Shown here: positions 3,912-64,000 of the stretch, one piece after another
How the letters are laid out: each line of letters opens with the position of its first letter
Numbering within the stretch: position 1 is the first letter of the stretch
Notes under the pieces: generated by a model
Told to the model about the DNA's origin: nothing
The model's database searches: none
Seen by the model: the letters and a program-made list of their open reading frames with translations, nothing else
Translations under genes and position numbers: made by a program
Source: Thauera terpenica 58Eu
GTDB lineage: Bacteria; Pseudomonadota; Gammaproteobacteria; Burkholderiales; Rhodocyclaceae
Direction of reading: 5' to 3'
Length of the DNA: 64,000 nucleotides
Assembly: GCF_000443165.1 (NCBI RefSeq)
Contig: NZ_ATJV01000048.1
Span: 248,001-312,000, forward strand

Positions 3912-5102
3912 TCAGGCCACCACGCCGGCGCTGCGGCAGGCGTGGATGTCATCTTCCGAATAGCCCAGCAGGTCGCGCATGATCTGCGACGTGTGCTGGC
4001 CGCTGCACGGCGCCAGCGCATCCAGACGCGCCGTGCCCTCGCTCATGAAGATCGGGAAGCCCAGGCTCTTCACCGCGCCAAAGCTGGGATGTTCCAGTTC
4101 GACGATGTAGCGATTGATGAGCGCCTGCGGGTCGCTGGCGGGATAGTCGAAACGTTCGATGATGTCGGCCGACATGCCTTTTTCAGAGAACACCTGACGC
4201 CAGTGCTTGCCGGGCTGGGTGACGAAGGCCGCTTCGAGCGCGTGGATGAGCTCGAGGCGGTGGGTCTCGGTGCGCTTGTCGTGGGTGTCGAAGCGCGGAT
4301 CGTCTTCGGCAATGCCCACCGCCGCCGAGAACATCGGCCACCAGCGGTCGGTGTCGGGCATGGTCAGCGTCACCCAGCGCCCGTCCGCGCTCGGATAGAG
4401 CGCACCCGACATCGGGTTCGACACATCCAGACGCGAGATCGGGTTGAGCAGCCGGTCGCCCTTGCCGATGGCGAGGAAGGCCTGCAGGTCGAGCGCCGCG
4501 CCATACATGTTGGCGCCGAACAGCGATACATCCACCGCCTGACCTTCGCCGCTGACAGCGCGATGCAACAAGGCCGTCACCACGCCAAAGGCCAGCATCA
4601 CGCTCGAGTGCATGGCGCCGGCGCCGGTGTACACCGGTGGCTGTCCGGGCTGGGGCAGGATGGGCATCATGCCGGTGCGGGCGGCAGCGAGCTCGTCGAT
4701 TGGCGGCAGCTCGCTGTCCGGGCCCAGCGGTCCGAAGCCGGACAGACGGCCGAAGACGATGTCAGGGCGCAGCACGCTCGCCGCCGGGTAGTCGATGCCC
4801 AGCGCCTCGAGCTCGGGCGCGGTCCAGTCGGTCAGCACCACGTCTGCCTTGGCCACCAGCGCATGCAGCAGCGCCCGGCCCTGCTCGGATTGAACATCGA
4901 GGGCGATGCTCTCCTTGTTGCGGTGGATCAGGTCAGCGTCGTGGTTCCAGACCCCCTCCCCGCCGCCTTCGCGCGGCGCCAGCGGCAAGGGCTCAAGACG
5001 CAACACGCGCGCGCCGAAATCGGCCAGAAAGGTCGCCCCCAGCGAGGCGCAGAACAGTCGCGTCAGGTCGATCACGACTACGTCATCAAGAGGACGGCTC
5101 AT
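3912..5102 (-). CDS. CaiB/BaiF (class III) CoA-transferase, probable non-catalytic subunit
   Basis: The 396-residue family III CoA-transferase begins DDVVVIDLTRLFCASLGATFLADFGARVLRLE and contains SGEGQAVDVSLFGAN. At the site where the catalytic aspartate is expected the sequence reads TGAGAMHSSVMLAFGV, with Ala aligned to the Asp of the downstream paralogue, so it may be a structural or regulatory subunit. It is the first gene of the minus-strand operon running 5102 to 73 and faces the porin operon across a 270-base divergent region that contains a perfect palindrome. Confidence 0.82.
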   Translation of the reverse strand: MSRPLDDVVVIDLTRLFCASLGATFLADFGARVLRLEPLPLAPREGGGEGVWNHDADLIHRNKESIALDVQSEQGRALLHALVAKADVVLTDWTAPELEALGIDYPAASVLRPDIVFGRLSGFGPLGPDSELPPIDELAAARTGMMPILPQPGQPPVYTGAGAMHSSVMLAFGVVTALLHRAVSGEGQAVDVSLFGANMYGAALDLQAFLAIGKGDRLLNPISRLDVSNPMSGALYPSADGRWVTLTMPDTDRWWPMFSAAVGIAEDDPRFDTHDKRTETHRLELIHALEAAFVTQPGKHWRQVFSEKGMSADIIERFDYPASDPQALINRYIVELEHPSFGAVKSLGFPIFMSEGTARLDALAPCSGQHTSQIMRDLLGYSEDDIHACRSAGVVA

Positions 5103-34633: not shown

Positions 34634-35290
34634 ATGAGCGCGGACACCCTGGCCCCGGACACCACGACCCCGAGCGCGATCATCCTCGCCGCCGGTGAAG
34701 GTCGCCGGCTGGGTGGCCGCGCGAAGGCGAGCCTGCGCATTGACGGCTCCAGCCTGCTGCAGCGACTCGGCAGCGCCTTGCGCGGCGCCGGCATCCACGA
34801 GCTCGGCGTCGTCATCGGCCCCTACCGCGATCAGCTCCTGCCCCTGGCACGCACGTGCGGTGCCCAGGTTCTCCAACACCCGCGGGCGGGTGCCACACTG
34901 ATCGACTCACAGCGCCTCGCGCTCGACCATCACCTGGCTCAACAAGGCGAAACCGACCTCTTGCTGGTGCTGGCCGACCTGCCCTTTCTCACCGCGGCGC
35001 ACATCCAGGCGCTGCTCGAACGCTGGCGCCAGCGTGCCCCCAGCGTGGATGCGCAGATGCCCGTGGTCGCAGGCGTTCGCGGCCACCCCTTGATCCTGTC
35101 ACGGCGCGCGGCCGAGGCCATTGCGGCGACGCCGCGCGAGCTGGGCATTCGCGACTGGCTTGCACGCCACCCGGAGCGCGTGCTGGCGGTGAATGCCTCG
35201 CAGCCGGCCTATGTGAGCGACATTGACACCGAGGCCGATGTCGAGGCCCTGAGGGCAGCGCTGGCGCCGCACATCGTGAGCTGGCCATAG
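34634..35290 (+). CDS. MobA-like (MocA-type) nucleotidyltransferase
   Basis: The 218-residue protein has the nucleotidyltransferase start AIILAAGEGRRLGGRAKASLRIDGSSLLQRL and the metal site LLLVLADLPFLTAAHI. This is the MobA/MocA family, which adds GMP or CMP to molybdopterin; the MocA branch serves xanthine-dehydrogenase-type enzymes and often goes with XdhC, which is present at 14275. Because it follows cofC and fbiC, a second CofC-like role in F420 synthesis is an alternative, but the sequence is closer to MobA-like proteins. Confidence 0.75.
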   Translation: MSADTLAPDTTTPSAIILAAGEGRRLGGRAKASLRIDGSSLLQRLGSALRGAGIHELGVVIGPYRDQLLPLARTCGAQVLQHPRAGATLIDSQRLALDHHLAQQGETDLLLVLADLPFLTAAHIQALLERWRQRAPSVDAQMPVVAGVRGHPLILSRRAAEAIAATPRELGIRDWLARHPERVLAVNASQPAYVSDIDTEADVEALRAALAPHIVSWP

Positions 35291-35485
35291 CTCCAGGCCC
35301 GGCACCTCGTCCTGAGCCCTGATGCACACGCTGGTGCTCAAGGCCGGGGGCAGGACATGACATCAGCGTGAAACCCGTTCGCCGTCAAGGCATTGGCGGA
35401 ATTCGCAGGATTTATGGCCTAAGCGACACTGTGCTTGAAGCCCCGGCTTGGCTACGATGGCTTACCTTACATTGCGAGGACCGTC

Positions 35486-51380: not shown

Positions 51381-52274
51381 TCAAATGAAGCGTGACCACA
51401 CTGGCATGAGGTCAGGCGGAAGGGGTTTGCAACGTCCGAGGTCGGTCGGACTCTCTTGTTCGCCGTGAAAGTCGGAGGCGCGCGAGGCGAGCAGGCCGCG
51501 CTGACGGGCAACCGTGGCGAAGCGGCGCATCTCGTCCTCACTGTGCGCACCTGAAACCACCTCGATGGCATCGCCACCTGCAGCGACGAAACGGTCAAGC
51601 AGTTGGGTCATGCCGGCCGCCGACAGGCGGTAACGCGCTGGATGCGCAAGCACCGCAACACCGCCCGCGGCCACGATCCAGCCCACGGCGTCCTCCAGCG
51701 ATGCCCAGGTATGCTCGACGAAACCGGGCTTGCCGCGTACCAGGTAATGATCGAACACCGTTTTCACGTCCGGCATGATGCCACTGGCAACGAGATGGCG
51801 GGCAAAGTGGGCGCGGCTGACGAGTGCAGGATTGCGCGCAAATTGATGGGCGCCTTCGAGTGCACCCTGGATGCCGACCTCGGCCAGCGCCGCTGCGATG
51901 CGCTGCGCGCGGGCCTCACGCCCGGCCCTGAGCTGTTGCAGGCCGGTGACGATCGCGGGCGCGCAGGGGTCGATGGCCAAGCCCACGATATGCACGCTGT
52001 CATTGGCGAAGGACACCGAAATCTCCACCCCGGGCACGAACCCGACCCCCAACTCGGCCGCCGTCCGCGCGGCGACGTCGAGCCCACTCAACTCATCGTG
52101 ATCGGTGAGCGCAAGCAGTTCCACGCCGTTCGCCTGCGCACGCCGCACCACGTCGGCTGGATCGAGCCAGCCGTCGGACACGGTGGAGTGGCAGTGAAGG
52201 TCGGCGTTGAGCAAGTGCATGCGGGCAAGTTCCTGCAAAGAAGTGGTAAAACGAGCAGTCATACGAGTTGTCAT
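51381..52274 (-). CDS. PHP-domain phosphoesterase (RNase AM/YciV-like)
   Basis: The 297-residue protein has the PHP metal motifs NADLHCHSTVSDG, ALTDHDELSGL, GVEISVSFANDSVHIVGLAID, VLAHPARYRLSA and SDFHGE. In E. coli the family member trims RNA 5' ends and nucleotides. The ATG at 52274 overlaps the stop of the upstream hydrolase (ATGA), implying coupling; an ATG at 52220 just before the domain is possible. Confidence 0.86.
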   Translation of the reverse strand: MTTRMTARFTTSLQELARMHLLNADLHCHSTVSDGWLDPADVVRRAQANGVELLALTDHDELSGLDVAARTAAELGVGFVPGVEISVSFANDSVHIVGLAIDPCAPAIVTGLQQLRAGREARAQRIAAALAEVGIQGALEGAHQFARNPALVSRAHFARHLVASGIMPDVKTVFDHYLVRGKPGFVEHTWASLEDAVGWIVAAGGVAVLAHPARYRLSAAGMTQLLDRFVAAGGDAIEVVSGAHSEDEMRRFATVARQRGLLASRASDFHGEQESPTDLGRCKPLPPDLMPVWSRFI

Positions 52275-53164
52275 GGACCGTCTGACAAGAAGAACGCTTC
52301 AATGATCCCGGCAATCTGCTCGGGCTGATCGTGATGCAGGTTGTGTCCGGCATCGGCGAGCGTGAGCAAGCGCAGCGCGCCAAAGCAGGCCAGAGCCGCA
52401 GCGTGATCGGCGTCGCTGATACCGATCCGCGCACGCAAATGATCTGTCCCGGGCTCCGCGCCGGGCTCGACCACCAGCACCGGAGCGGTGATTCGCTGCC
52501 AGCAGGCTTGCGCCTCGGCGCGTCGGTAAAGCACCGGATTGACGCGACGGTGCGCGGGATCGCCCGCGATGCGCCAGCCTTCGCCTTCAGCCTCGGCCAG
52601 GGCGTGCGCCAGCCAGGTCGCACGCGCCGAACTCAGGCGCGGATTGTCCTGCCGCAGACGTGCGGCGATCGCATCGTGGCTGGGGTAGGCACGCGGTCGC
52701 GGCCTTACGGTCAAGCTCGCCAACCATTTCTGGTAACGCCCGGGCGCCTCGGCTGCAGGCCGATCCGGCAAACCAAAGGCGTCGAGCGCAAGCACACCCG
52801 CCACACGCGCAGGACGAATGCCGGCATACATGAGCGCGACATTGCCGCCCATGCTGTGGCCGACGAGACGCACAGGGGCATCGTCATTGCCCTCGCAAAG
52901 TCGCAGGATCGCATCGAGGTCGGCAAAATAGTCCGGAAACCAGTACCCATCCCCGCCGCACCATGCGCTGCGACCAAAGCCACGCCAGTCCGGGGCGATC
53001 ACATGCCAGTCGTGGGCAAGCGCATCGACGACGAACTGGAAGGACGGCGACGCGTCCATCCAGCCATGCAGCAGGTAGAGCCGTGGCAAGCCTTCCTCGC
53101 CCCATTCGCGCAGATGGAGGCGCAAACCGCGGACGTCAGCAAAGCGGGAACGGGAAATTTCCAT
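52271..53164 (-). CDS. Alpha/beta hydrolase
   Basis: The 297-residue protein has LYLLHGWMDASPSFQFVVDAL, HVIAPDWRGFGRS, the nucleophile elbow GHSMGGNVALMYAG and a late His (LADAGHNLHHDQPEQ). It is closely similar along its length to the hydrolase at 16563-17495. Substrate unknown. The start at 53164 is the last ATG before the fold; the ORF reaches 53257. Confidence 0.85.
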   Translation of the reverse strand: MEISRSRFADVRGLRLHLREWGEEGLPRLYLLHGWMDASPSFQFVVDALAHDWHVIAPDWRGFGRSAWCGGDGYWFPDYFADLDAILRLCEGNDDAPVRLVGHSMGGNVALMYAGIRPARVAGVLALDAFGLPDRPAAEAPGRYQKWLASLTVRPRPRAYPSHDAIAARLRQDNPRLSSARATWLAHALAEAEGEGWRIAGDPAHRRVNPVLYRRAEAQACWQRITAPVLVVEPGAEPGTDHLRARIGISDADHAAALACFGALRLLTLADAGHNLHHDQPEQIAGIIEAFFLSDGP

Positions 53165-53387
53165 CGCCGCATCATAACAAAGCACCCGCGCCGCCATGCC
53201 GCCGCCTGAGCGCTCGAAGACCTCGCCTACGCCGCCCGCAAAAGCTCGACATGACACACGGAGCGTCCCGCCCGACCGACCATGAAGCGGCTTCGATCAG
53301 CGTTTGAAAGCGCTCGAACCCTCTCGAACCCCATGCGCGGCCCTACGGACACCACACCACGCATGCACAAGTCCGCAAAAGCAAAAC

Positions 53388-53411
53388 GCCAACCCCGAAG
53401 GATTGGCGTAA
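53388..53411 (-). terminator. Terminator of the original tRNA-Thr transcript
   Basis: On the minus strand ACGCCAATCC pairs with GGGTTGGCGT (one G-U) around a short TTCG loop, then TTTTG follows. It lies just downstream of the tRNA 3' end and shows that this side is native chromosome. Confidence 0.7.
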
Positions 53412-53426
53412 GTGCTTGATTCTATG

Positions 53427-53472
53427 GTGCCGGCAATAGGAATCGAACCCACGACCTTCTGATTACAAATTT
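53427..53472 (-). other. 3' half of tRNA-Thr(UGU): attachment-site copy
   Basis: Read on the minus strand, 46 bases run from the anticodon loop (TTTGTAA, anticodon TGT) through the variable region and T arm (GGGTTCGATTCC) to the acceptor strand TGCCGGC, A and CCA. Past 53472 the sequence no longer fits the 5' anticodon stem, D arm or acceptor, so the gene is incomplete. A 3' tRNA fragment beside a tyrosine integrase is the classic mark of element insertion. Confidence 0.82.
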
Positions 53473-53589
53473 GCAAAAGACGGTGTTTTTCGGGGTTGAA
53501 CTACATGCACAAAAACGCTCAAGGCCATTGAAAAACAAAGGCAAGTTTATTTTTCGCATTGCTCGGCGTTGAGCCGGATTGCTAGAATA

Positions 53590-53627
53590 TGGCTACATGG
53601 TGGCTACATGGAATCGCCGTGTAGCCA
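53590..53627. promoter_or_regulatory. TGGCTACA direct and inverted repeats before the integrase
   Basis: TGGCTACA occurs at 53590-53597 and 53601-53608 and inverted as TGTAGCCA at 53620-53627, ending 22 bases before the integrase ATG. These may be binding sites for the integrase arm domain or an excisionase that also represses the gene. Confidence 0.5.
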
Positions 53628-53648
53628 ACCCAAGCTGGAGCCGACACC

Positions 53649-55037
53649 ATGCAACGCGAGCGACTGACCCCTGACCGCATCCGCCGCTTCACCATCCCGA
53701 CCGACAAGACCCAAGCCTTCCTGTGGGACACTGAAGCGCCCCGCCTTGCCGTGCGCGCGACCGCTGGCGCGAAGGCGTACATCTTCGAGTCCAAGCTGAA
53801 CCGCCGCACCCTGCGCGTGACCATCGGGGATGTGCGCGCCTGGAACCTTGATGACGCCCGCGCCGAGGCTCGCCGCCTGCAAACACTTGTCGACCAGGGC
53901 ATCGACCCCCGCGAACAGAAAGCCGAGCGCATCGCCGCATCCGAAGCCAAGCGCGAGGAAGCCCGCCGCATCGAAGCGCCCGCCCTGGACGCCTGGAACG
54001 CCTACATCGAGGCCCGCGCCGCCCGGTGGAGTCCGCGCACCCTGCTGGAGCATCAGCGCGCCATCGCCCCCGGCGGAAAGCCCAAGACTCGAGGCCGCAA
54101 GAAAGGCGAAGGCGACACGACGCAGCCCGGCATCCTGCTGGCCCTGCTCGAGCGCCCCCTATCGGAGATTGACGCCGCCGCCGTTCGCGCCATCCTGAGG
54201 GACGAAAGCGAGCGCCGGGCGACCATGGCCCGCAACGCCTTCGCCTACCTGCGCGCCTTCCTGAACTGGTGCGCCGACCGCCCCGAGTACCAGGGGCAGA
54301 TTCACGCCGACGCCTGCGCCGGCCGCATCGCCCGCGACGAACTGCCCAAGCGCCAAGCGAAGGACGACTGTTTGCAGCGCGAGATGCTGCGCCCGTGGTT
54401 CGAGCAGGTGCGCGCCATCACCAATCCGGTGCAGTCCGCTTACCTGCAAGTGGCCCTGCTGACCGGAGCCCGCCGGGAAGAAGTGGCCGGCCTGCGGTGG
54501 GAGGACGTGGATTTCAAGTGGAAGGCCCTGACCATCCGGGACAAGGTGGAAGGAGAGCGCACCATCCCGTTGACGCCCTATGTAGCCGGCCTGCTGCACG
54601 ACCTGAAGCGCCGCAACGACACGCCGCCGCCCGAGTACCGCATCCTGCACGGCAAGCGCATCAAGAACGACCTCGAAGCTTGGGAGCCTTCGCCGTGGGT
54701 ATTCAGCAGCCCGAGCGCCGCATCCGGCCGCCTGCAAGAACCGCGCATCGCGCACAAGCGTGCCATCACCGCCGCCGGCCTGCCGGATGACCTGACGATT
54801 CACGGCCTGCGCCGGAGCTTCGGCACCTTGGCCGAGTGGTGCGAAGTGCCCGCCGGAGTGGTGGCGCAGATTCAGGGGCACGCACCGAGCGCCATTGCTG
54901 AAAAGCACTACCGCCGCCGCCCCCTCGACCTGCTGCGCATGTGGCACGAGCGCATCGAGGCGTGGATTCTGGCCGAGGCCGGCATCGAGCCGCCGACCGA
55001 GCAAGAGGCCGCCCCCGCCCTGCGCGCGGTGGCCTGA
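53649..55037 (+). CDS. Tyrosine-type site-specific integrase
   Basis: The 462-residue protein has an N-terminal DUF4102-like arm domain (LTPDRIRRFTIPTDKTQAFLWDTEAPRLAVRATAGAKAYIFE), a core-binding domain, and a catalytic domain with Arg in GARREEVAGLRWEDV (about 275), HGLRR (His 385, Arg 388), GHAPSAIAEKHY with His and the nucleophile Tyr 421. It is of the P4-like group that inserts into tRNA 3' ends, which fits the adjacent tRNA-Thr fragment. It is transcribed away from the att site. Confidence 0.92.
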   Translation: MQRERLTPDRIRRFTIPTDKTQAFLWDTEAPRLAVRATAGAKAYIFESKLNRRTLRVTIGDVRAWNLDDARAEARRLQTLVDQGIDPREQKAERIAASEAKREEARRIEAPALDAWNAYIEARAARWSPRTLLEHQRAIAPGGKPKTRGRKKGEGDTTQPGILLALLERPLSEIDAAAVRAILRDESERRATMARNAFAYLRAFLNWCADRPEYQGQIHADACAGRIARDELPKRQAKDDCLQREMLRPWFEQVRAITNPVQSAYLQVALLTGARREEVAGLRWEDVDFKWKALTIRDKVEGERTIPLTPYVAGLLHDLKRRNDTPPPEYRILHGKRIKNDLEAWEPSPWVFSSPSAASGRLQEPRIAHKRAITAAGLPDDLTIHGLRRSFGTLAEWCEVPAGVVAQIQGHAPSAIAEKHYRRRPLDLLRMWHERIEAWILAEAGIEPPTEQEAAPALRAVA

Positions 55038-55136
55038 CCGAGCAATGCCGCCCCTACCTCGACGGAGGGAAAAGCCGGACACCTTCACCCGGCTGGCGCG
55101 GCACCCAAACGAAGGAGCGTATCGAAGGAGCACGCA

Positions 55137-55829
55137 ATGCACGACGACGACATTCCGACCGCCGAGGCCGCCGAGTTCGCGAGGGCGTTTGATTTGTATG
55201 TGAAGCTCGACGAGGTGAAAGCGACCGCCGGGCGCCTGCGAGCCGCCGCAGACCGCACGACCGGCTTGGAGTTCGAGGCCAACATCCGGCAGGCCAAAGA
55301 GGCCGAGGTGGAGGTGGCACGCGTTGAAGCCGCATTGCGTGGTGAGGAACTGACCGAAGCGATTCCGAGCGCCGCCGGCTTGCCGGGTGGGCTGCGCGAA
55401 GGCGACGTGGCCCGGGAGCAGCCGATACCGGAGTCACAAACCGACGAAGGGCACCGCAAGCGCCGCATCGAGCTTATCGAGGAGGGGGAACGTGCCCGCC
55501 TCCGCGTGCGCGATGAATGGCAGCGGGAACGGCAGGGAACGGTGGGCGAGGCGGACCAGGACAGCCGGCCCGAGCTGACCCCCATGAAGCGCAAGGCCAT
55601 CATCGAGCGCCTGGGGCGCAGATACCCCGCGTTGGCGTCTGCCGTGGACCGGCCCGAAGAGTGGGCGAAGGCATGCCGCGTGCCGAAGGAAGCAAGCCCT
55701 GACGGCAAGCAAGGCTGGTACTACCTGGAGCGCATCGAGGCCGAATGCCGCACCCGGTATGGCGGAGCCGCGCCAACGCCCGCCGCCGACCTGAGCCTCG
55801 CCGGGCAATTGCACGACATCAACCGGTAA
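55137..55829 (+). CDS. Uncharacterised element protein
   Basis: The 230-residue protein is highly charged and mostly helical by look (LYVKLDEVKATAGRLRAAADRTTGLEFEANIRQAKEAEVEVARVEAAL), with an Arg-rich centre and a short C-terminal domain (MKRKAIIERLGRRYPALASAVDRPEEWAKACRVPKEASPDGKQGWYYLERIEAECRTRYG). That last part resembles small DNA-binding or regulatory segments in phages, but I cannot name it. The ATG has GAAGGAG upstream. It lies 100 bases after the integrase. Confidence 0.65.
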   Translation: MHDDDIPTAEAAEFARAFDLYVKLDEVKATAGRLRAAADRTTGLEFEANIRQAKEAEVEVARVEAALRGEELTEAIPSAAGLPGGLREGDVAREQPIPESQTDEGHRKRRIELIEEGERARLRVRDEWQRERQGTVGEADQDSRPELTPMKRKAIIERLGRRYPALASAVDRPEEWAKACRVPKEASPDGKQGWYYLERIEAECRTRYGGAAPTPAADLSLAGQLHDINR

Positions 55830-55830
55830 A

Positions 55831-55886
55831 CCCCCAATTCCCCCAGAAATCCCCCGGAAATTCCCCGGATTTTCCCGCTTTTCCCC
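55831..55886 (-). repeat. Six phased G tracts (minus strand): G-quadruplex-forming candidate
   Basis: C tracts begin at 55831, 55840, 55851, 55863, 55874 and 55883, so spacings are 9-12 bases, close to one helical turn. On the minus strand this gives six runs of 3-5 G with loops of 4-7 bases, which meets the usual G-quadruplex rule. It lies in the 113-base gap before the small HTH gene and replication block. Confidence 0.6.
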
Positions 55887-55942
55887 ATCTCGTTGAACTG
55901 CATCCCATGCCGCGCAAGCGGAGTGATTGAGGTTCAACGAAA

Positions 55943-56137
55943 ATGCAATCCAACACCCAGACCAAATACAGCACCGAGCAGGCCGCCGCCGCGCTGGGTA
56001 TTCGCCCGCAAACGCTGCGCGCCGCCCTTTGCCGCGATGGGCATTACTTCGGCATCCGCCCGGTAAAGCTGCCGAATCGCATGCTGCGCTGGCCCGGCGA
56101 GGCCATCGACCGCCTACTGACCGGCGAGGTGGCCTAA
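55943..56137 (+). CDS. Small helix-turn-helix (AlpA/excisionase-like) protein
   Basis: The 64-residue protein contains YSTEQAAAALGIRPQTLRAALCRDGHYFGIRPVKLPNRMLRWPGEAIDRLL, a MerR/AlpA-style winged helix that reads like those in phage excisionases and regulators. It may control integrase expression or direct excision. The next gene starts right after its stop. Confidence 0.7.
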   Translation: MQSNTQTKYSTEQAAAALGIRPQTLRAALCRDGHYFGIRPVKLPNRMLRWPGEAIDRLLTGEVA

Positions 56138-56323
56138 ATGGACATCACGCTCTATAGCCACATCGACGGCGACGGCTGCATCGAATACGAGCGCGGCACT
56201 ATCCTCGTAACGAACGAGGTTGATGTGACCGCCGCGAAGGTTGTCATCGGCACCGCCGGACTTCGCAGCCTGGGCAAGAAATTGGTCGCTCTTGCGGATC
56301 TGTTGGAAGGGGGCGCGCAATGA
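56138..56323 (+). CDS. Small uncharacterised element protein
   Basis: The 61-residue protein (MDITLYSHIDGDGCIEYERG... GLRSLGKKLVALADLLEGGAQ) starts at the base after the previous stop and overlaps the next start (ATGA). The tight packing supports expression. No family recognised. Confidence 0.55.
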   Translation: MDITLYSHIDGDGCIEYERGTILVTNEVDVTAAKVVIGTAGLRSLGKKLVALADLLEGGAQ

Positions 56324-56712
56324 AAAACGCCCCCGACCGCAAAGCAGCCGAGAGCGCCATTGAGCAGCGCGGATTCTACACCGACAACCCCCGCCACCAG
56401 CGTGCTCTAGCCCTGCTGCTTCAACGCCCCGCCCGACGCGAGGAAATCGACCGCGCCGCTGGATGTAGCAATGCGCCCGACTTGATTGGCGAGCTTCGTC
56501 GGCGTGGCCTGGAACTTCCCTGTGAGCGCGTGGAAGCACTGGACCGCGACGGTCGCCCTTGTCGTCCTGGCGTGTATCACGCCACCGCGGCCGACCGCCG
56601 CAAGGTGTCTGCATGGTTGCGCCACCGTGGTGCTGGCTTCATCGCGCCTGAGCTGTTGGGCTGGGTCGCCCTGGCTGCGGTCGTCGGCCTGATGCTTGCG
56701 GGAGGTGTCTGA
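56320..56712 (+). CDS. Small element protein with winged-helix part and C-terminal membrane helix
   Basis: The 130-residue protein has a helix-turn-helix-like stretch (RALALLLQRPARREEIDRAAGCSNAPDLIGELRRRGLELPCERVEALDRDGRPCRPGVYHATAADRRKV) similar to phage proteins that process ORF-adjacent regulation, then a single hydrophobic helix (LLGWVALAAVVGLMLAGGV) at the very end. It overlaps both neighbours by 1-4 bases. Role unknown. Confidence 0.6.
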   Translation: MKNAPDRKAAESAIEQRGFYTDNPRHQRALALLLQRPARREEIDRAAGCSNAPDLIGELRRRGLELPCERVEALDRDGRPCRPGVYHATAADRRKVSAWLRHRGAGFIAPELLGWVALAAVVGLMLAGGV

Positions 56713-57293
56713 TGCGCCGCTACGCGCCCCGCACGCCCTACCGATTCACTATCGAGCTTCCCGCGCACATCGCGGACACGGTGCACCTGAGCGCCGAGGA
56801 ACACGGCTGCTACATGCGCCTGCTGTTCAGCTACTGGCGCTCCGGCCCACCGAAAGACGATGACCGCGTGCTGGCCCGCATCGTCGGCTCGTCGGTCGAA
56901 GAGTGGGCTGAGGTCCGGCCGATGGTGGAGCCGTTTTTCGAGGTCTTGCATGGGCAGTGGCTGCACTGGCGGACCGATGACGAGTTGCAGGCCGCCTATG
57001 AGTCCATCGAGAAGTCATCGCGCGCCGGCAAGGCCGCTGCAAAAGCCCGGTGGGACAAGGAGAAAGGCCGCACCGCCGACAATGACAAATGCGAAGCCGA
57101 TGCGGTCGCAATGCGGTCGCAGTGCGGTCGCAATACGAATCGCAGTTCCAATAGAAATATAGCGAGCGAGCACCAAGCGAAGGAGCCAACCCCAACCCAA
57201 ACCCCCCGAGCCAAGGCGAAGCAGCCTTTGGGCGACTTCGATGAGGACGTGGCCCTTGCAGAGCGCGACCTGGGCATCGGGAGGCCGGCATGA
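56712..57293 (+). CDS. DUF1376 (YdaU-like) phage replication-associated protein
   Basis: The 193-residue protein has the DUF1376 pattern: FTIELPAHIADTVHLSAEEHGCYMRLLFSYWRSGPPKDDDRVLARIVG... WAEVRPMVEPFFE... WLHWRTDDELQAAYE, then a basic linker (SSRAGKAAAKARWDKEK) and a variable tail. The family is found in prophages beside replication genes. Its ATG overlaps the previous stop, and its end overlaps the helicase start. Confidence 0.8.
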   Translation: MRRYAPRTPYRFTIELPAHIADTVHLSAEEHGCYMRLLFSYWRSGPPKDDDRVLARIVGSSVEEWAEVRPMVEPFFEVLHGQWLHWRTDDELQAAYESIEKSSRAGKAAAKARWDKEKGRTADNDKCEADAVAMRSQCGRNTNRSSNRNIASEHQAKEPTPTQTPRAKAKQPLGDFDEDVALAERDLGIGRPA

Positions 57294-58843
57294 CGACGAA
57301 TCATTCCGCCCTGGCTGGGGAAATCATCAGCCTGCGCCCGTACCAGTCGAATGTCGTCGACGCCACCCGCGCCGCCCTGCGCGCCGGTAAGCGCCGCGTG
57401 CTGACCTACCTGCCCACAGGGGGGGGCAAGACCCGCGTGGCGACCGCCATCACGCAAATGACGCTCGCCAAGTCATCCGGCCGCGTCATCGTCCTGGCGA
57501 ATCGCAAGCAACTCGTCCACCAGTTCGCCGCCGCCTTGCGCGCTGCTGGTCTTGATGTGGGCATCGCCCAAGGCGAGAACACAGCCGGCCTGCATCATCG
57601 CGTGGTCGTGTGCAGCATCGACACCATTCACGCCCGGAACTACACGTTCGACGACGTGGCGCTGTTCATCATCGACGAGGCGCACGCGGTCGCCGGCAGC
57701 GAGAAGTACCGCCGCCTGCTGTTCCGCTTCAACAAGGTTCCGGTTATCGGACTGAGCGCGACGCCGTTTGCCCGTGGTCTGGGCAAGCACTACGACGAGC
57801 TGCATGGTGCGCTGTTCGAGGAACTTGTCGTCGGTGCAACGGTGCAGCAGTTGGTCGACGACGGGTTCCTGACGGACCTGGAAATCTACGCGCCCAGCAA
57901 GCCCGACATGGCGGGCGCGAAGCTGACCCGCACGCCCGAGGGGGAACAGGACTACCGGCAAGCCGACATCGACGAGGCCACCGACCGGCCCGAGCTGGTG
58001 GGCGACATCATCCGGCACTGGCTGAAGCTGGCAGCAGGCCGCAAGACCATCGTATTCGCGTCGAGCATCGCGCACAGCAAGCACATCGTCGGGCAGTTCC
58101 AGGCCGCCGGGGTGACGGCCGAGCACCTTGACTGCTACATGGACGACGACACCCGCGCCGACATTCTCGGGAAGTTCGAGCGTGGCGACTTCACGGTGCT
58201 GTCGAACGTGGCGCTGCTGTCCGAGGGCTTCGACCTGCCGAACACTTTCTGCATGATTCTGGCGAGGCCCACAAGGTCGCTGACGAGGTTCCTGCAAATG
58301 GTGGGCAGGATCTTGAGGCCGGCCCCCGGCAAGACTCACGCCCTGCTGCTGGACCACTCGGGCAGTGTGCAGCGCATCGGCCATCCGTTCGATGACTTGC
58401 CGCTGGATCTGGACGACGGCAGCCCGAACAAGTCAGGCTGCCAAGAGCGCGAGAAGCCCGAGCCCAAGCCCTGCCCGAGCTGCAAGTTCGTCAAGCCGGC
58501 CGGCACCCGCAAGTGTCCGAAATGCAGCTTCGAGCCCGAGCGCCAGAACGACATCGAGGTCATCGACGGTGAGCTGGAGCGATTCGACCGCAAGGCCAAG
58601 AAGCCGGCGACGCCCGACCGCAAGCAGCACGTCTATTCGCAGTTGCTTCAGGTCGCGCGCAACAAGGGCTATTCACCCGGTTGGGTGGCGCACAAGTACC
58701 GCGCCATGTTCGACGTGTGGCCGCGCAACATGCGTGACGTGACGGCCACACCGACCGGCGAACTGCTGTCCTGGCTGAAGTCGCAAGAGATTCGCTTCGC
58801 CAAAGGCCGCGAGAAGCATCAGGAGGGCCGTAGCCATGTCTGA
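57290..58843 (+). CDS. DEAD/DEAH-box (superfamily 2) helicase
   Basis: The 517-residue protein has Walker A PTGGGKT (about 41-47), DEAH (about 129-132), SATPFARG, and the C-terminal helicase motifs TVLSNVALLSEGFDLPN and RFLQMVGRILRPAPGKTHALLLDH. A C-terminal zinc ribbon (CPSCKFVKPAGTRKCPKCSF) follows at about residue 400. Phage helicases of this type unwind DNA for element replication. It overlaps the downstream primase gene by 8 bases. Confidence 0.9.
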   Translation: MTTNHSALAGEIISLRPYQSNVVDATRAALRAGKRRVLTYLPTGGGKTRVATAITQMTLAKSSGRVIVLANRKQLVHQFAAALRAAGLDVGIAQGENTAGLHHRVVVCSIDTIHARNYTFDDVALFIIDEAHAVAGSEKYRRLLFRFNKVPVIGLSATPFARGLGKHYDELHGALFEELVVGATVQQLVDDGFLTDLEIYAPSKPDMAGAKLTRTPEGEQDYRQADIDEATDRPELVGDIIRHWLKLAAGRKTIVFASSIAHSKHIVGQFQAAGVTAEHLDCYMDDDTRADILGKFERGDFTVLSNVALLSEGFDLPNTFCMILARPTRSLTRFLQMVGRILRPAPGKTHALLLDHSGSVQRIGHPFDDLPLDLDDGSPNKSGCQEREKPEPKPCPSCKFVKPAGTRKCPKCSFEPERQNDIEVIDGELERFDRKAKKPATPDRKQHVYSQLLQVARNKGYSPGWVAHKYRAMFDVWPRNMRDVTATPTGELLSWLKSQEIRFAKGREKHQEGRSHV

Positions 58844-59771
58844 TCGCCTGGATGTTCGCCACATCGCACAAGGCCGCTGGCGGTCGATTCTGACGGTCCT
58901 AGGCATGGATGAGCGCGCCCTGTCCGGCAAGCACGGCCCCTGTCCGATGTGCGGAGGCCGCGACCGCTTCCGGTTCGATGACAAGGACGGACGCGGGACC
59001 TACTTCTGTTCCGGCTGTGGCGCAGGCGACGGTGTGCAGCTGGCAATGGGCATCACCGGCCTGTCGTTCCGCGATGTGGCCGCCGAGGTCGAGCGCATTG
59101 CCGGCAAGATCAAGCCGACCGCCACCAGGACCGAGCGCACCGACGACGACAAGCTGCATGCATTGCGCCGCGCCTTCAAGGAGTCCAGGCCGATTCAGCG
59201 CGAGGACGAGGCATATCGCTACTTGGCTGGGCGAGGGCTGCGCCTGCACGACCTGCCCGAGAGCATCCGCACGCACCCCGGCATGGCGTACCTGGACGAC
59301 GGCAAGATGCTGGGCACGCTCCCGGCGATGCTGGCGACCGTGACCGATGCGACAGGCCGCGCGGTATCGATGCACAGGACCTATGTCGAGGACGGTCAAA
59401 AGGCGGCTGTACCAGCCCCGAGAAAGATGATGCAGGGATTGCCCCTTGCTGGCGCTGCAATTCGCCTGACGCCGGTTTCGAGAAGCCTGGGGATGGCCGA
59501 GGGCATCGAGACCGCCCTTGCCGCCGCCGAGCTGTTCGAGGTGCCGACCTGGAGTTGCATCAGCACCAGTGGGATCGAGTCATTCGAGCCGCCGGCCGGC
59601 GTGGGGCACGTCATCATCTTCGCGGACAACGACGCCAACTTCGCCGGGCAGGCCGCAGCCTACCGAGCAGCGCACCGGCTGGCGCTGCGCAGCATTGAGG
59701 CTGAAGTCGTGATCCCTCCCCAAGTTGGGGACTGGCTCGATGAACTGAATCGACGGCGACCGCCGACTTGA
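58836..59771 (+). CDS. Zinc-finger/Toprim primase-like protein
   Basis: The 311-residue protein has a P4-alpha/DnaG-type zinc ribbon (Cys 36, 39, 58 and 61, CPMCGG... CSGCG) and a Toprim domain (LGMAEGIETALAAAELFEVPTWSCIST; GVGHVIIFADNDANFAGQAAAYRAAHRL). It lacks the full P4 helicase half, so it probably primes replication with the helicase next door. A terminator follows. Confidence 0.88.
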   Translation: MSDRLDVRHIAQGRWRSILTVLGMDERALSGKHGPCPMCGGRDRFRFDDKDGRGTYFCSGCGAGDGVQLAMGITGLSFRDVAAEVERIAGKIKPTATRTERTDDDKLHALRRAFKESRPIQREDEAYRYLAGRGLRLHDLPESIRTHPGMAYLDDGKMLGTLPAMLATVTDATGRAVSMHRTYVEDGQKAAVPAPRKMMQGLPLAGAAIRLTPVSRSLGMAEGIETALAAAELFEVPTWSCISTSGIESFEPPAGVGHVIIFADNDANFAGQAAAYRAAHRLALRSIEAEVVIPPQVGDWLDELNRRRPPT

Positions 59772-59780
59772 CCGCCACCC

Positions 59781-59804
59781 ACCCGGCCCCGAGCCGGGTT
59801 TCTT
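59781..59804 (+). terminator. Terminator of the replication operon
   Basis: ACCCGGC (59781-59787) pairs with GCCGGGT (59793-59799), followed by a TTTCTT tract, 10 bases after the primase stop. Confidence 0.65.
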
Positions 59805-59899
59805 ACGAACGACGTTACGAGCGACGCAATGCGTAATCGGCGCTCCACCTCAACGAAATGTCCGCATCAAGCATCTCTGATCATGACTTAAGCCTCACC

Positions 59900-60115
59900 T
59901 TAAGCGAGCGCGGCCAAGGTGATAACGCCCAAGGTAAGTGCGACATTTCCTTTGAGCTTTCCAGCATTGCGTTCCCGGTCCGCGAAATCGGCAGCATCGC
60001 CTGATAGCCCTCGGTGTAGGGCACTCATGTAATGGCTATCAGCCTTGGCCCGCACCCAAAAGCCTGAGGCGATGAGGGCGCCACCGATGAACGCAACGAG
60101 AATATCTTCATTCAT
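59900..60115 (-). CDS. Small membrane protein
   Basis: The 71-residue protein has one hydrophobic helix at the start (ILVAFIGGALIASGFWV) and another at the end (VALTLGVITLAALA), with a charged middle. It lies 9 bases after the lipoprotein stop on the same strand. No family recognised. Confidence 0.55.
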   Translation of the reverse strand: MNEDILVAFIGGALIASGFWVRAKADSHYMSALHRGLSGDAADFADRERNAGKLKGNVALTLGVITLAALA

Positions 60116-60124
60116 TTCGCGATG

Positions 60125-60499
60125 TCAGTATTGCGTGCACTGCACGTCATCACCGAGTCGAGTGCAGTGAGTGCGCTTCGGGGGTGGTGGGGGCTGTATT
60201 ACCGGTGCTTGGCGCTGACTGTTCGTCATCATGGACATGCCTGCGTTGAACTGGGCCTGCTTTCGGGTTTCCGCGGCGGCGATATGCGGCCCGCAGTCTA
60301 TGCCTCGGCGCGCAATTTCCTCGTCCATCATTCGGTTCGAATACATCGAAGCAGATGCGCGGCAGAGGTTGTAGTTGCTCTGCTGTGTAAGTTCATCTGC
60401 ACTCGCAAAGCCTAGCCTAGCCGGTGACCCTGCGCAGCCCACAAGCAGCAGGCTCGCCAAGCAGGCGCTTACTGAGATCACCGTACGCTGCGGAGACAT
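60125..60499 (-). CDS. Small lipoprotein
   Basis: The 124-residue protein has a short signal peptide with the lipobox LLVGC, so lipid attachment at that Cys is likely. The mature part has three further cysteine-containing regions (NLCRASASMYSNRMMDEEIARRGIDCGPHI; HCTRLGDDVQCTQY) and a proline run. It may be a surface-exclusion, lysis-like or moron protein of the element. It is divergent from the repressor gene across a region with a three-half-site operator. Confidence 0.7.
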   Translation of the reverse strand: MSPQRTVISVSACLASLLLVGCAGSPARLGFASADELTQQSNYNLCRASASMYSNRMMDEEIARRGIDCGPHIAAAETRKQAQFNAGMSMMTNSQRQAPVIQPPPPPKRTHCTRLGDDVQCTQY

Positions 60500-60583
60500 T
60501 TGAAACCTCTTCGTAATGAATTGATAAGACGGGGATCGAGAGCCCGCATACTTGCATCTGTGACGACCGCAACGTGATGCCGG

Positions 60584-60617
60584 GTAACTTGCTCAGAAGT
60601 TACGTTATCACGTAACT
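60584..60617. promoter_or_regulatory. Three alternating half-sites forming two overlapping palindromes
   Basis: GTAACTT (60584-60590), AAGTTAC/AGTTACG (60597-60604) and CGTAACT (60611-60617) are separated by 6 bases. The first and second form one perfect dyad, the second and third another. The site lies in the 170-base gap between the divergent lipoprotein and regulator genes and is a strong candidate operator for that regulator. Confidence 0.7.
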
Positions 60618-60669
60618 ATGCTTATGAGGTAGTCAAACTGCGATCCTGTGGCTGCACTACGTTCCTGGA

Positions 60670-61077
60670 ATGGAAAATGCGAAACGTCACTTCGCCACCC
60701 GATTGCGTGAAGCGATGCAACTGGCGGGGTATGACCCGAAGCCCGCCGTCTTGGAGCGCGAGTTCAATTTGCGCTGGCACGGAAAGCCGATGACGCTCCA
60801 CGGCGTGAGGCGCTGGCTTCTCGGCGAAGCGATCCCTGGGCAGGACAAAATCGTCACTCTGGCCGAGTGGCTCGGGGTCTCGCCTCAGAGCCTGCGGTAC
60901 GGAGGCGAGGCGGAGCGGCGCGTCGAGGAGCGAACAAGCTGGTGGGATGAAGTGTTTCGGAGCCAGGAGCGCGATGTAGTGGCTGCCTACTTGGAGCTTC
61001 CGCAGGAGCAGCGTCAGGCGCTCAGAAAAATCATCCTGGCGCTCGCAGATAGGAAGGAAGAGGAGGTTGGTGCGTAG
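60670..61077 (+). CDS. Repressor-like helix-turn-helix regulator
   Basis: The 135-residue protein has an N-terminal HTH (FATRLREAMQLAGYDPKPAVLEREFNLRWHGKPMTLHGVRRWLLGEAIPGQDKIVTLAEWLGVSPQSLRYG), similar to phage CI/Cro-type regulators, and a short C-terminal helix pair (QERDVVAAYLELPQEQRQALRKIILALAD). It lacks a peptidase domain, so it is not a self-cleaving LexA-type repressor. It probably binds the operator upstream and controls the divergent genes. Confidence 0.78.
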   Translation: MENAKRHFATRLREAMQLAGYDPKPAVLEREFNLRWHGKPMTLHGVRRWLLGEAIPGQDKIVTLAEWLGVSPQSLRYGGEAERRVEERTSWWDEVFRSQERDVVAAYLELPQEQRQALRKIILALADRKEEEVGA

Positions 61078-61377
61078 GTATCGAATCCGTTTCAGGATGC
61101 AGTTCAGCACCGGATCGCAAGGGCTTATCGTGCTCACTGAAGGGGTTTCGGCGAGTGAACGCCATAGCGGGAGCCAGGAAATCAGTCGCTATCCATCGGA
61201 TGCGCTCCTTTGCGAATCGGCGGTCAATCGGCGCTCCGGCCGGCGGCACATAGAGGCGGAATCCGCACGCCAAAGCGCACAACAAAGCGCACGTCAAAAG
61301 CCGGATTTCCGGCTATGCAGGTAAGGCATCGCGTGATCAGCGCGGGAATCCGCACGGAATCCGCGCAGGCTGAGGCC
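61078..61377. other. 300-base gap with short tandem repeats
   Basis: A possible TTG- or GTG-started frame (61067-61324) with a good ribosome-binding site runs through it, but the predicted 85 residues look unstructured and I do not call it. CAAAGCGCAC is repeated near 61270, and GGAATCCGC occurs at 61258, 61345 and 61356, the last two in tandem with an 11-base period. Confidence 0.4.
61345..61366. repeat. 11-base tandem repeat
   Basis: GGAATCCGCAC is followed directly by GGAATCCGCGC (61345-61366); a third copy lies at 61258-61268. It could be a protein-binding iteron or chance in GC-rich DNA. Confidence 0.45.
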
Positions 61378-61617
61378 CTAGTCCTCACCCGCGTAGCTGA
61401 TGGCCAAGCGCAGCCACAACTCGCTGCCACGCCTCTTTTCCTTCTCCGCGTAGAAGGGTATTGACGAGAGCCGCGCGCGCAAGCGTCGAGCTTCCGCCAC
61501 GATGGCTCGCACCCTGTCTGGCGGGAAGCCCTTGAGATACGTCACGGCGACATCATCTAGGTCGTCGCCTTGGTCCTGCATGCTTGGCTCTGTTGGATTC
61601 ATCGCGGCGTCAGTCAT
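61378..61617 (-). CDS. Small uncharacterised protein
   Basis: The 79-residue protein (MTDAAMNPTEPSMQDQGDDLDDVAVTYLKGFPPDRVRAIVAEARRLRARLSSI... LWLRLAISYAGED) starts at an ATG that overlaps the stop of the upstream gene (ATGACTGA), which supports coupled translation. It has an acidic start and a basic helix. Function unknown. Confidence 0.55.
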   Translation of the reverse strand: MTDAAMNPTEPSMQDQGDDLDDVAVTYLKGFPPDRVRAIVAEARRLRARLSSIPFYAEKEKRRGSELWLRLAISYAGED

Positions 61618-61828
61618 CGCTTCCCGCGATGTGTCGCGGCAAGGGATGGACTTCCGTCCAACTTCCCTTGAAACGGCAGTCGGTGTCAGTGCCGGGGTCT
61701 GCCGTGCCACGCAGAAACGGTGGAATCTCAATCTCCGGCTTGCGCCGACGTTTCCTAAGTCGATACAGGACGACGAGCGCGATGACCGCCGCCGCCACGA
61801 CCAGCGCAAAGTCAATCTCGGGGATCAT
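61610..61828 (-). CDS. Small single-pass membrane protein
   Basis: The 72-residue protein has an N-terminal hydrophobic helix (IDFALVVAAAVIALVVLYRL) followed by a very basic stretch (RKRRRKPEIEI), so the N-terminus is probably outside and the tail cytoplasmic. It precedes and overlaps the 79-residue gene. Together they might be a small membrane accessory unit beside the restriction system, but nothing in the sequence proves this. Confidence 0.5.
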   Translation of the reverse strand: MIPEIDFALVVAAAVIALVVLYRLRKRRRKPEIEIPPFLRGTADPGTDTDCRFKGSWTEVHPLPRHIAGSDD

Positions 61829-62085
61829 GGGTGCGTTCCTAGCCGGTGATGGTGACCGGGATTGTGCGGGCTCTTGTTGCCTTTGTCATCCCGGGCGTCG
61901 TCGGAATCGGCCAGTGGAATCATCCTGGTAATCGGCCACAAAAACCCGCCACGCACCGGGTCTGGCGGTTGGCGTTGCGTGTGCCGCAGGTGGCCGGCAG
62001 CCTTTGGGGCGAGGATCTGTTCTGCGCGCGAGACTGCTATGCTCATGCGTTGCCCCTACCCAGCATCGCTGCAAGCAACGCGCCC
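61829..62085. promoter_or_regulatory. Divergent region upstream of the restriction-modification gene
   Basis: This 257-base gap should hold promoters for the small membrane gene and the Type IIL enzyme. A minus-strand frame (61825-62046) overlaps the next start by ATGA but looks unstructured. No C-protein box-like repeat was noticed. Confidence 0.35.
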
Positions 62086-64000
62086 ATGACCCCAGCCCAG
62101 CTCATCGCCAAGTGGAAGAACAACCCGCTCTCCGAGCGCGCCGGCTCTCAGCCCTTCTTCCTCGACCTCTGCAGCATGCTCGGCGTGGATCCGCCGAACG
62201 ATCCGGACAGCTACTGTTTCGAGCGCGGCGCCACCCGCACCGGCGCCGGCCACGGCTGGGCCGACGTGTGGAAGCGCAGCCACTTCGGCTGGGAGAACAA
62301 AGGCCCCGGCGGTGACCTGTCGGGGGCCCTGCGCCAGCTTATGACTTACGCGCTCGCGCTGGACAACCCGCCGCTGCTTGTTGTCAGCAATCGCGAGATC
62401 ACCCAGATCCACACCCACTTCACCGGCACCCCGAGCGAGACCTATACGATCCGCCTCGAGGACGTCGGCACGCCGGAGAACCTGCAGCGCCTGCGCTGGC
62501 TGTTCACCGATCCCGAGAAGTTCCGGCCCGGCCGCACGGTGCTCGACATCACTAAGGATGCCGCCGGCCGCTTCGCCGACATCGCGCAGTCCATGACCGA
62601 GCGTGGCCACGATCCCGCGAAGGTGGCGCACTTCCTAATCCAGTCCTTGTTCTGCATGTTCGCCGAGGACATCGGTCTGCTTCCGAAGAAGCTTTTCGAG
62701 CGCGTCATCGCCAAGCGCCAGGGCGACCCAGCCAAGCTCGCAGTGTCGCTGGCGGAGATGTTCCAGGCGATGCGCACCGGTGGCGACTTTCTCCTCGAGG
62801 ACATCGCCTACTTCAACGGCGGGCTGTTCGAGCACGTGGAAGTCCTCGAGCTGATCCCCGGCGAGATAGAAGCCCTGCTGGCTGCCAGCCGCATGGACTG
62901 GAGCGCAATCGAACCGTCGATCCTCGGCACCCTGTTCGAACGTGGCCTGGATCCGAAGATCCGCGCCCCGCTCGGTGCGAACTACACCGACCCCGGCACG
63001 ATCATGAAGCTGGTCCGCCCAGTCGTCGTCGAGCCGCTTGAGCGCGAATGGGAGGCTGCCAAGGGCAGGATCGCCCCGTTGGTCGAGAAGTACCATGCTG
63101 GTGGGAAGGGCTCCCAGAAGGCCGGCCAGGATGCGCAAGCCCTGTTCCTGGGCTACCTCGAGCGCCTCAAGAACTTCCGCGTCCTCGACCCCGCATGCGG
63201 CTCCGGCAACTTCCTGTACCTTGCCCTGCGCGCGCTGAAGGACCTCGAGCACCGCGCGAACCTGGATGCCGAAGCGCTCGGCCTGCATCGCCAGCTCACA
63301 ATTGAGACCAGCCCTGACAACGTGCGCGGAATCGAGATCAACGCCTACGCTGCCGAGCTCGCCCGGGTGACGGTCTGGATCGGCGAGATTCAGTGGATGC
63401 TCAAGCACGGCTACGACTGCCGGCGAAACCCTATCCTCGCGCGCCTCGACCACATCGAGAACCGGGATGCGCTGCTGAACGCGGACTGCACCGAGGCGGA
63501 ATGGCCGGTGGTCGACGTGATCGTAGGCAACCCCCCGTTCCTTGGCGACAAGCGCATGCGCAGCGAGCTCGGCGCCGAGATGACCGCCAAGATCCGCGCC
63601 TGCTACGAGGGCCGGGTCCCTGGCGGCGCAGACCTCGTGCTCTACTGGTTCGAGAAGGCTCGAGATCAAATCAAGGCCAAGCGCTGTGAGGCAGCCGGCC
63701 TCGTCGCGACAAACTCGATCCGCGGTGGAGCAAACCGAAAGGTGCTGGACCGCATCGTCGAGAGCACCCGCATCTTCGAGGCGTGGAGCGACGAGCCGTG
63801 GGTCAACGAAGGCGCTGCCGTGCGCGTGTCGCTCGTGTGCTTTGGAGGGCGCGCCGGCGCAGCGCTCGACGGGCGCTGTGTGCGGGAGGTTCATGCGGAC
63901 CTAACAGCAGCCGATGGCGGGCAACCCTCGTCTGGAGACCTAACCACCGCCAAAGCTCTCACCGAGAATGAAGGTACAGCGTTCCTCGGGATCCAGAAAA
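62086..64000 (+). CDS. Type IIL (MmeI-like) restriction-modification enzyme, C-terminus beyond window
   Basis: The first 638 codons are visible. The N-terminus has a nuclease motif D60-X9-E70-X-K72 (in GWADVWKRSHFGWENKGPGG), the same spacing as the MmeI nuclease. A helical connector follows, then a methyltransferase with DPACGSGNF (about 368-376) for AdoMet and NPPF (482-485) for adenine-N6 methylation. One protein thus cuts and methylates DNA; the target-recognition domain should lie past the window end. The frame is open to the edge. The ATG at 62086 is the first reasonable start. It is cargo that could protect the host from other phages. Confidence 0.9.
   Translation, partial: MTPAQLIAKWKNNPLSERAGSQPFFLDLCSMLGVDPPNDPDSYCFERGATRTGAGHGWADVWKRSHFGWENKGPGGDLSGALRQLMTYALALDNPPLLVVSNREITQIHTHFTGTPSETYTIRLEDVGTPENLQRLRWLFTDPEKFRPGRTVLDITKDAAGRFADIAQSMTERGHDPAKVAHFLIQSLFCMFAEDIGLLPKKLFERVIAKRQGDPAKLAVSLAEMFQAMRTGGDFLLEDIAYFNGGLFEHVEVLELIPGEIEALLAASRMDWSAIEPSILGTLFERGLDPKIRAPLGANYTDPGTIMKLVRPVVVEPLEREWEAAKGRIAPLVEKYHAGGKGSQKAGQDAQALFLGYLERLKNFRVLDPACGSGNFLYLALRALKDLEHRANLDAEALGLHRQLTIETSPDNVRGIEINAYAAELARVTVWIGEIQWMLKHGYDCRRNPILARLDHIENRDALLNADCTEAEWPVVDVIVGNPPFLGDKRMRSELGAEMTAKIRACYEGRVPGGADLVLYWFEKARDQIKAKRCEAAGLVATNSIRGGANRKVLDRIVESTRIFEAWSDEPWVNEGAAVRVSLVCFGGRAGAALDGRCVREVHADLTAADGGQPSSGDLTTAKALTENEGTAFLGIQK

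Follow-up and report, generated by a model that had tools for sequence, protein, structure and literature searches.

An integrative element in tRNA-Thr(UGU) of Thauera terpenica 58Eu, its chromosomal flank, and the tRNA targets of its integrase clade

Why does the 3' half of a tRNA-Thr(UGU) gene lie beside an intact tyrosine integrase gene in Thauera terpenica 58Eu, and does it mark one end of an integrated element? We addressed this question in a stretch of 64,000 nt (hereafter the window; C48:248001-312000 of a 4.15-Mb draft genome in 135 contigs), in which the tRNA half lies antisense to the integrase gene, whose ATG is found 178 bp beyond it (Table 1). The initial annotation had recognized this 46-base fragment, although at 53427-53472, two bases too high, and predicted that the right end would hold an intact tRNA-Thr(UGU) and that the 46 bases would form a direct repeat. 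Both predictions were borne out. A search of the same genome with positions 53400-55040 returned a second match at C48:313725-313794, with a second 46-nt copy at C48:313749-313794 (65749-65794 in the window frame, past position 64000 on the same contig), which is part of an intact tRNA-Thr with anticodon TGT called by ARAGORN on the minus strand (C48:313749-313824). A distance of 12,324 bp separates the two copies. Because they match at 46 of 46 positions, and because the match corresponds to the 3' half of an entire tRNA gene, chance can be excluded. Inside the 64,000-nt window, ARAGORN called no tRNA-Thr; one of its calls there, a tRNA-Arg(gcg) at 4644-4739, has an unusual length (96 nt) and may be false.

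Identity between the copies runs to tRNA-Thr base 31, with which the 5' strand of the anticodon stem ends, and thus one base past the anticodon loop in which the fragment had been thought to end. While this end of the identity block is exact, strand exchange may lie anywhere within the block. Outside the tRNA, the repeat copies are 90% alike for 48-49 bp more, through the terminator at both ends (93.7% over 95 columns in all), so that the crossover is not fixed to the base and the initial claim of a left boundary defined to the base had to be given up. Comparison with the integrase family places the predicted exchange in the anticodon arm. The element is bounded by an intact tRNA and a same-orientation 3' fragment and holds an intact tyrosine integrase gene, as is characteristic of tRNA-gene islands, and its identity block extends into the anticodon arm but no further, as in the anticodon-site class. 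We conclude with high confidence that an integrative element of 12.3 kb, one end of which is in this region, was inserted into tRNA-Thr(UGU) by attP × tRNA recombination in the anticodon arm. This kind of element is well known, and insertion into tRNA genes is a common route; the interesting aspects are the retargeting within the integrase clade and the probable inversion at the element's edge, both described below.

Table 1. Features of the element and its left flank, in window coordinates.
Feature	Position	Strand	Remarks
Alpha/beta-hydrolase-like gene, chromosomal flank	52271..53257	-	Not the tRNA-Thr neighbour in relatives
Junction stretch between hydrolase and terminator, probable inversion breakpoint region	53184..53376	.	
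Intrinsic terminator behind the tRNA half	53377..53424	-	90% similar copy at the element's right end
Displaced tRNA-Thr(UGU) 3' half, 46 nt, left direct-repeat copy	53425..53470	-	46/46 against intact tRNA-Thr, C48:313749-313824
Integrated element, part inside the window	53425..64000	.	Repeat unit of 12,324 bp, ending at window-frame 65748 before the right copy (65749-65794)
Candidate integrase arm-type sites	53590..53628	.	GGCTACA twice in direct orientation, 11 bp apart, and once inverted; 21-bp word recurs at window-frame 65673-65693
Tyrosine integrase, 462 aa	53649..55037	+	Arm-DNA-bind_3 and Phage_integrase; catalytic residues present
230-aa ORF	55137..55829	+	Present also in G005 and G012 elements
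HTH_17 protein, candidate excisionase/regulator	55943..56137	+	PF12728; recurs in relatives
Small ORF, 61 aa	56138..56323	+	Without family match
ORF, 130 aa	56320..56712	+	Conserved in part of the family, matches 12/101 loci
DUF1376 protein, primosomal-type	56712..57293	+	Phage-family match
DEAD/ResIII-type helicase, phage type	57290..58843	+	phrog_16
DNA primase	58836..59771	+	Zinc ribbon, DUF7146, Toprim; phrog_510
Repressor-like protein, 135 aa, weak	60670..61077	+	phrog_4, E 5e-6
Type IIG restriction enzyme-methyltransferase (MmeI-like)	62086..64000, on to window-frame 64938	+	PADLOC PDLC03627, 936 bits; Pfam MmeI domains

The terminator behind the tRNA half was initially read as the tRNA's own, on the chromosomal side. 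It is a real terminator (-21.7 kcal/mol on the tRNA-sense strand, z -5.6), but a copy, weaker at -12.7 kcal/mol (z -3.6), is also found at the right end, and such a terminator is rare behind tRNA-Thr in the genus: among 26 other genus loci (in two of which the trailer has at most 35 bases), we detected it only in G005, G010, and G017, each of which has an element or a 9-kb insertion at tRNA-Thr. A left copy is not expected from one-step insertion into a site like that of the relatives, and we infer that an earlier element had brought it to this tRNA-Thr. A 42-bp terminator motif (window 53377-53419; C44:52455-52495) is found genus-wide behind several tRNA isotypes, with and without elements. 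We rejected this motif as a signature of the element itself, given that it also follows tRNA-Met of G009, G003, and G002 in stretches without an integrase match; rather, it serves as a tRNA terminator throughout the genus and is carried by elements too.

From the left, the element encodes the integrase, the 230-aa ORF, the HTH_17 protein, two small ORFs, the DUF1376 protein, the helicase, the primase, small ORFs including the weak repressor-like one, and the type IIG enzyme. Integrase residues R275, K299, H385, R388, H411, and Y421, which we take to be the catalytic residues from general knowledge of tyrosine recombinases, were invariant in 14 of 14 aligned integrases. The word TGGCTACATGGTGGCTACATG is located directly before the integrase gene and again just within the right end. 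Family searches covered 10 element proteins, small minus-strand ORFs being left out. Among these 10, we recognized no head, tail, or terminase gene as expected of a complete prophage, no relaxase or type IV secretion gene (Pfam) as expected of an integrative conjugative element, and no packaging, capsid, or capsid-interference gene as expected of a phage-inducible satellite (PICI). A primase/replication module, another PICI trait, was present, and in Pfam one of the 10 proteins matched HTH_17 (PF12728) while none matched Phage_AlpA.

As a mechanism, we propose that an attP carrying the tRNA 3' half and the terminator recombined, by means of the integrase, with the chromosomal tRNA-Thr(UGU) inside the anticodon arm, with the exchange probably within the 7-bp anticodon loop. 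A complete tRNA would have been rebuilt at the right end from the host 5' part and the 3' half of the element, while the original 3' half of the host would have remained next to the integrase gene, at the left end. The HTH_17 protein may aid excision. The integrase promoter could overlap the arm sites and hence be self-repressed: the intF promoter of Escherichia coli is reported to be repressed approximately 23-fold by IntF (PMC2951348), and the same would be expected for the window's integrase. Self-repression is here proposed by analogy with IntF, since promoter scanning upstream of the integrase gene gave no consensus promoter.

Does this layout hold beyond one genome? A protein search of 101 genomes found integrase matches in 51, and a scan of a species-genome collection gave at least 557 related stretches, of which the best 80 were kept. 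Together with the 21 strongest loci of the 101-genome search, these best 80 of at least 557 made up the family sample, reduced to 98 loci by three shared contigs. A tRNA 3' half (at least 80% identity, antisense to the integrase, 100-340 bp upstream) was present in 85 of the 98, compared to 0 of 89 control windows 1.6 kb downstream. Of the 13 loci that missed this threshold, L218, L220, L222, L231, and L233 (0.77-0.79), L230 (0.68), and L186 (0.61, tRNA-like by eye) fell below it, L161 had too short an upstream stretch, and L042, L044, L210, L213, and L214 had no visible tRNA half. Given these last five loci, insertion in this clade is not restricted to tRNA genes. L042 and L044 (genomes G023 and G027) have similar non-tRNA sequence upstream in place of a tRNA half, and therefore probably use another target.

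Two-ended cases numbered 35 (40 rows minus four neighbours or self-matches of the fragment and the duplicate L158). All 35 had an intact tRNA at the far end, antisense to the integrase, and an identity that ended within the anticodon arm, a count that cannot reveal other layouts because the fragment was sought only beside the integrase. Identity ended 2-7 bases 5' of the anticodon in 33 of the 35; in L165 and L205 it ended within or just 3' of the anticodon, with no base shared 5' of it. L046, whose fragment contains undetermined bases (N), is a 36th two-ended element. The word before the integrase recurred inside the right end in 32 of these 36 elements, a pass being a match equalled in no more than 5% of windows drawn at random from that element (L050, L054, L162, and L217 failed). 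Arm-type words varied between elements (GGCTACA, CTTACA, GTTCCCC, and others). A separate element with an 80% identical integrase and the same layout resides in tRNA-Thr of G005. On contig C65 of G010 (L156, L157), a different integrase, 34% identical, adjoins a tRNA-Thr half with an intact tRNA-Thr about 23 kb off; tRNA-Thr is thus used also by a distantly related element.

What kind of element, then, is it? Our preferred reading, held tentatively and just short of even confidence, is that the primase and helicase encoded by the element serve its replication, that it is spread with the aid of a helper phage, and that the type IIG enzyme protects its host. Alternatively, a larger phage in tRNA-Thr could have decayed, losing its structural genes and keeping integrase, replication, and restriction genes. 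Such decay, which we consider rather unlikely, would fit the helicase, primase, and DUF1376 protein matching phage families and the 39 integrase-clade loci in the viral collection IMG/VR, but the integrase gene is intact and has weak matches in the phage collection (10 records, below 30% identity, at most 37% covered). Size divides the both-ended relatives unevenly on this point: four of them (L039, L041, L047, and L051) reach 22-49 kb, as a larger ancestor would predict, whereas the other 32 of 36 span 3.7-12.3 kb, indicating that small size is the rule.

A defence island unconnected with phages, spread by conjugation or natural uptake and existing for its restriction gene, is less probable again. 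The type IIG gene at the right end is full-length, a similar one occurs in one relative (L179, 56%), and L224 has an OLD/AAA-type protein, all of which agree with such an island; no relaxase or secretion gene appeared among the 10 proteins scanned, however, and in pooled ORFs from relatives each listed PADLOC family was matched by 1 of 114, whereas replication genes recurred. On that same count, defence genes as a general cargo of the family were not supported. The 114 ORFs scanned came nearly all from 201 of at least 105 aa and were weighted to the tRNA-proximal half; among the first 25 of their 168 families, replication families recurred, with at least three matches to major head proteins and at least two to small terminases. 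Pfam gave no match for 10 larger proteins of relatives, and L043 encoded a tape-measure-like protein. HTH_17 matched 66 of 101 loci, counting duplicates and three cases in which the match is at least 30 kb away from the integrase, while the helicase and the primase of the window's element matched six loci each and its type IIG enzyme two. In 33 called elements, the commonest clusters were integrase (32), HTH_17 (18), and primase/helicase (16). L038 (a tRNA-Met element in genome G028) and L171 (a tRNA-Thr element in Aromatoleum tolulyticum) are 8-9 kb long, and each has one HK97-type major head protein gene close to its tRNA end, a hint that some satellites encode a capsid protein of their own.

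The left flank had initially been described as chromosomal, which it is, but it is not the neighbour seen in relatives, and a synteny check against them led us to reject it as native. The gene next to the junction is presumably an alpha/beta hydrolase, judging by a sequence motif. The 177 bp between this gene and the terminator gave short weak matches only in the 101 genomes (best E 4e-4 outside its own genome). In the genus, tRNA-Met follows tRNA-Thr within 72-546 bp at 15 of 27 loci, and these represent the site in its empty form. The other 12 comprise four with an element or insertion (G005, G010, G017, and the present genome, G000), three whose sequence ends within 0-593 bp of tRNA-Thr (G016, G026, G013), and five with no tRNA-Met within 1.5 kb of it (G001, G003, G007, G021, G028), so that the tRNA-Thr/tRNA-Met pair is common, not universal. 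An insertion without an integrase match was seen at G017:C1:351,900-360,900 (L116, L242), where about 9 kb with an element-type terminator separates tRNA-Thr from tRNA-Met; this stretch is perhaps a decayed element.

The genes left of the element (51300 to ~53190) adjoin a gene, here called Y, in the four relatives examined (G002, G014, G017, G018). In T. terpenica, Y (match ending at 35176) is instead next to tRNA-Met (match 35334-35430) on contig C13. Two reciprocal junctions are thus apparent, hydrolase with the tRNA-Thr element at window 53184-53376 and Y with tRNA-Met at C13:35176-35334 (L144). Given this reciprocal exchange of hydrolase/Y and tRNA-Thr/tRNA-Met neighbours, one inversion is probable, and it would have joined the outer end of the element to the hydrolase gene after insertion. 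In G017, whose genome is a single contig, 1.19 Mb separates the two corresponding sites. Apart from 8-16 bp words, no direct repeat is common to the junctions; one inverted 95-bp match (70.5%) pairs tRNA half with tRNA half outside the breakpoints. That there was no insertion, and that a partial tRNA-Thr duplication or an assembly join brought the tRNA half beside an unrelated integrase, might be read from this foreign flank and the 135-contig draft but is scarcely credible: the tRNA half terminates within the anticodon arm, just as it does in 35 of 35 two-ended relatives, the arm-type word has a partner at the opposite end, the intact tRNA is correctly placed and oriented, and the rearranged junctions have no direct repeat in common.

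On an integrase tree of the quick kind, with one-ended loci labelled from the fragment alone, 80 labelled rows required 31 changes of tRNA isotype, and the 33 both-ended rows required 18. In the 80-row set, L173 and L182 were relabelled (anticodon TGT) and the doubtful L165, L183, L205, and L207 were dropped; with the first labels, 84 integrases gave 35 changes vs. 51.5 for shuffled labels, indicating that close relatives often have a target in common. Nine tRNA isotypes serve as targets in the clade, with the caveat that class Met may include Ile(CAT) genes, which ARAGORN does not separate. Sublocation preference is a subject on which Williams reportedly wrote in 2002.

Of the 3919 islands reported in the Islander survey, 3760 have a 3' fragment and 2083 an anticodon-centred site (PMC4383910). 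An archaeal integrase lineage is known to retarget among tRNA genes (PMC8371274), and in phage Ms6 vectors a change in the attP core redirected integration to other tRNA-Ala genes at lower efficiency (PMC1762012). For satellite integrases, the account in PMC10111431 states one attB site per integrase clade; by contrast with that rule, many target changes under a steady layout are less usual, and so is an inversion at the edge of an element. In the open-licence literature, we found no paper on this integrase clade in Thauera or its kin.

One explanation, possible if somewhat doubtful, is that the protein reads anticodon stems and the anticodon inside the strand-exchange segment is checked only by homology between attP and attB, so that a new tRNA could be reached by a change in attP alone; successive elements at tRNA-Thr/tRNA-Met would then swap terminators and leave breakpoints for chromosomal inversion, such as those in T. 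terpenica. If true, a homology-only check would explain 31 isotype changes among 80 integrases with constant sublocation and layout. The clade offers a natural series on target change, in which the sublocation is constant, the tRNA is often changed, and arm words differ between elements yet agree at both ends. A one-ended guess has become a two-ended, mapped element in a large, mostly betaproteobacterial integrase clade with a steady layout, for which CP4-6 can be named as a studied relative. It is also an example of a small element with a type IIG restriction system and a case of an element flank that differs from the original neighbour.

Among known systems, the islands of Islander (PMC4383910) have a regenerated tRNA at one end, a displaced 3' fragment at the other, and a tyrosine integrase inside, and as described there they show no difference in kind from the present element. 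Archaeal pT26-2-type integrases, with 14 tRNA genes, are alike in that one lineage switches among tRNA genes, but are described as suicidal, with the att site encoded in their own gene (PMC8371274). Gram-negative PICI satellites, according to PMC10111431, are also small and share the order of integrase, HTH_17/AlpA-type protein, replication genes, and a variable late end, and a few relatives of the window's element do have head-protein or terminase matches. The element itself differs from PICIs in that no Phage_AlpA, terminase, or capsid protein was recognized in it and its tRNA fragment is undamaged.

The closest studied counterpart is E. coli K-12 CP4-6 in thrW (tRNA-Thr CGU), whose integrase IntF is 49.7% identical over 455 aa; E. 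coli plasmid matches to the window's integrase are likewise annotated as intF or integrase family protein. CP4-6 has a 70-bp repeat of the thrW 3' half (95.7%) 107-176 bp upstream of intF and an intact thrW at the far end, and thus the same layout, with its annotated start at base 28 of the tRNA. It differs in being 34 kb long, in carrying IS elements and metabolic genes with no type IIG enzyme among those listed, and in its anticodon, CGU rather than UGU. The ptwF-intF pair is classed as having the opposite-divergent layout, and the two rare layouts together make up less than 8% of 1273 pairs (PMC2951348). As in the IntF lineage, the window's integrase gene adjoins its displaced tRNA fragment and diverges from it.
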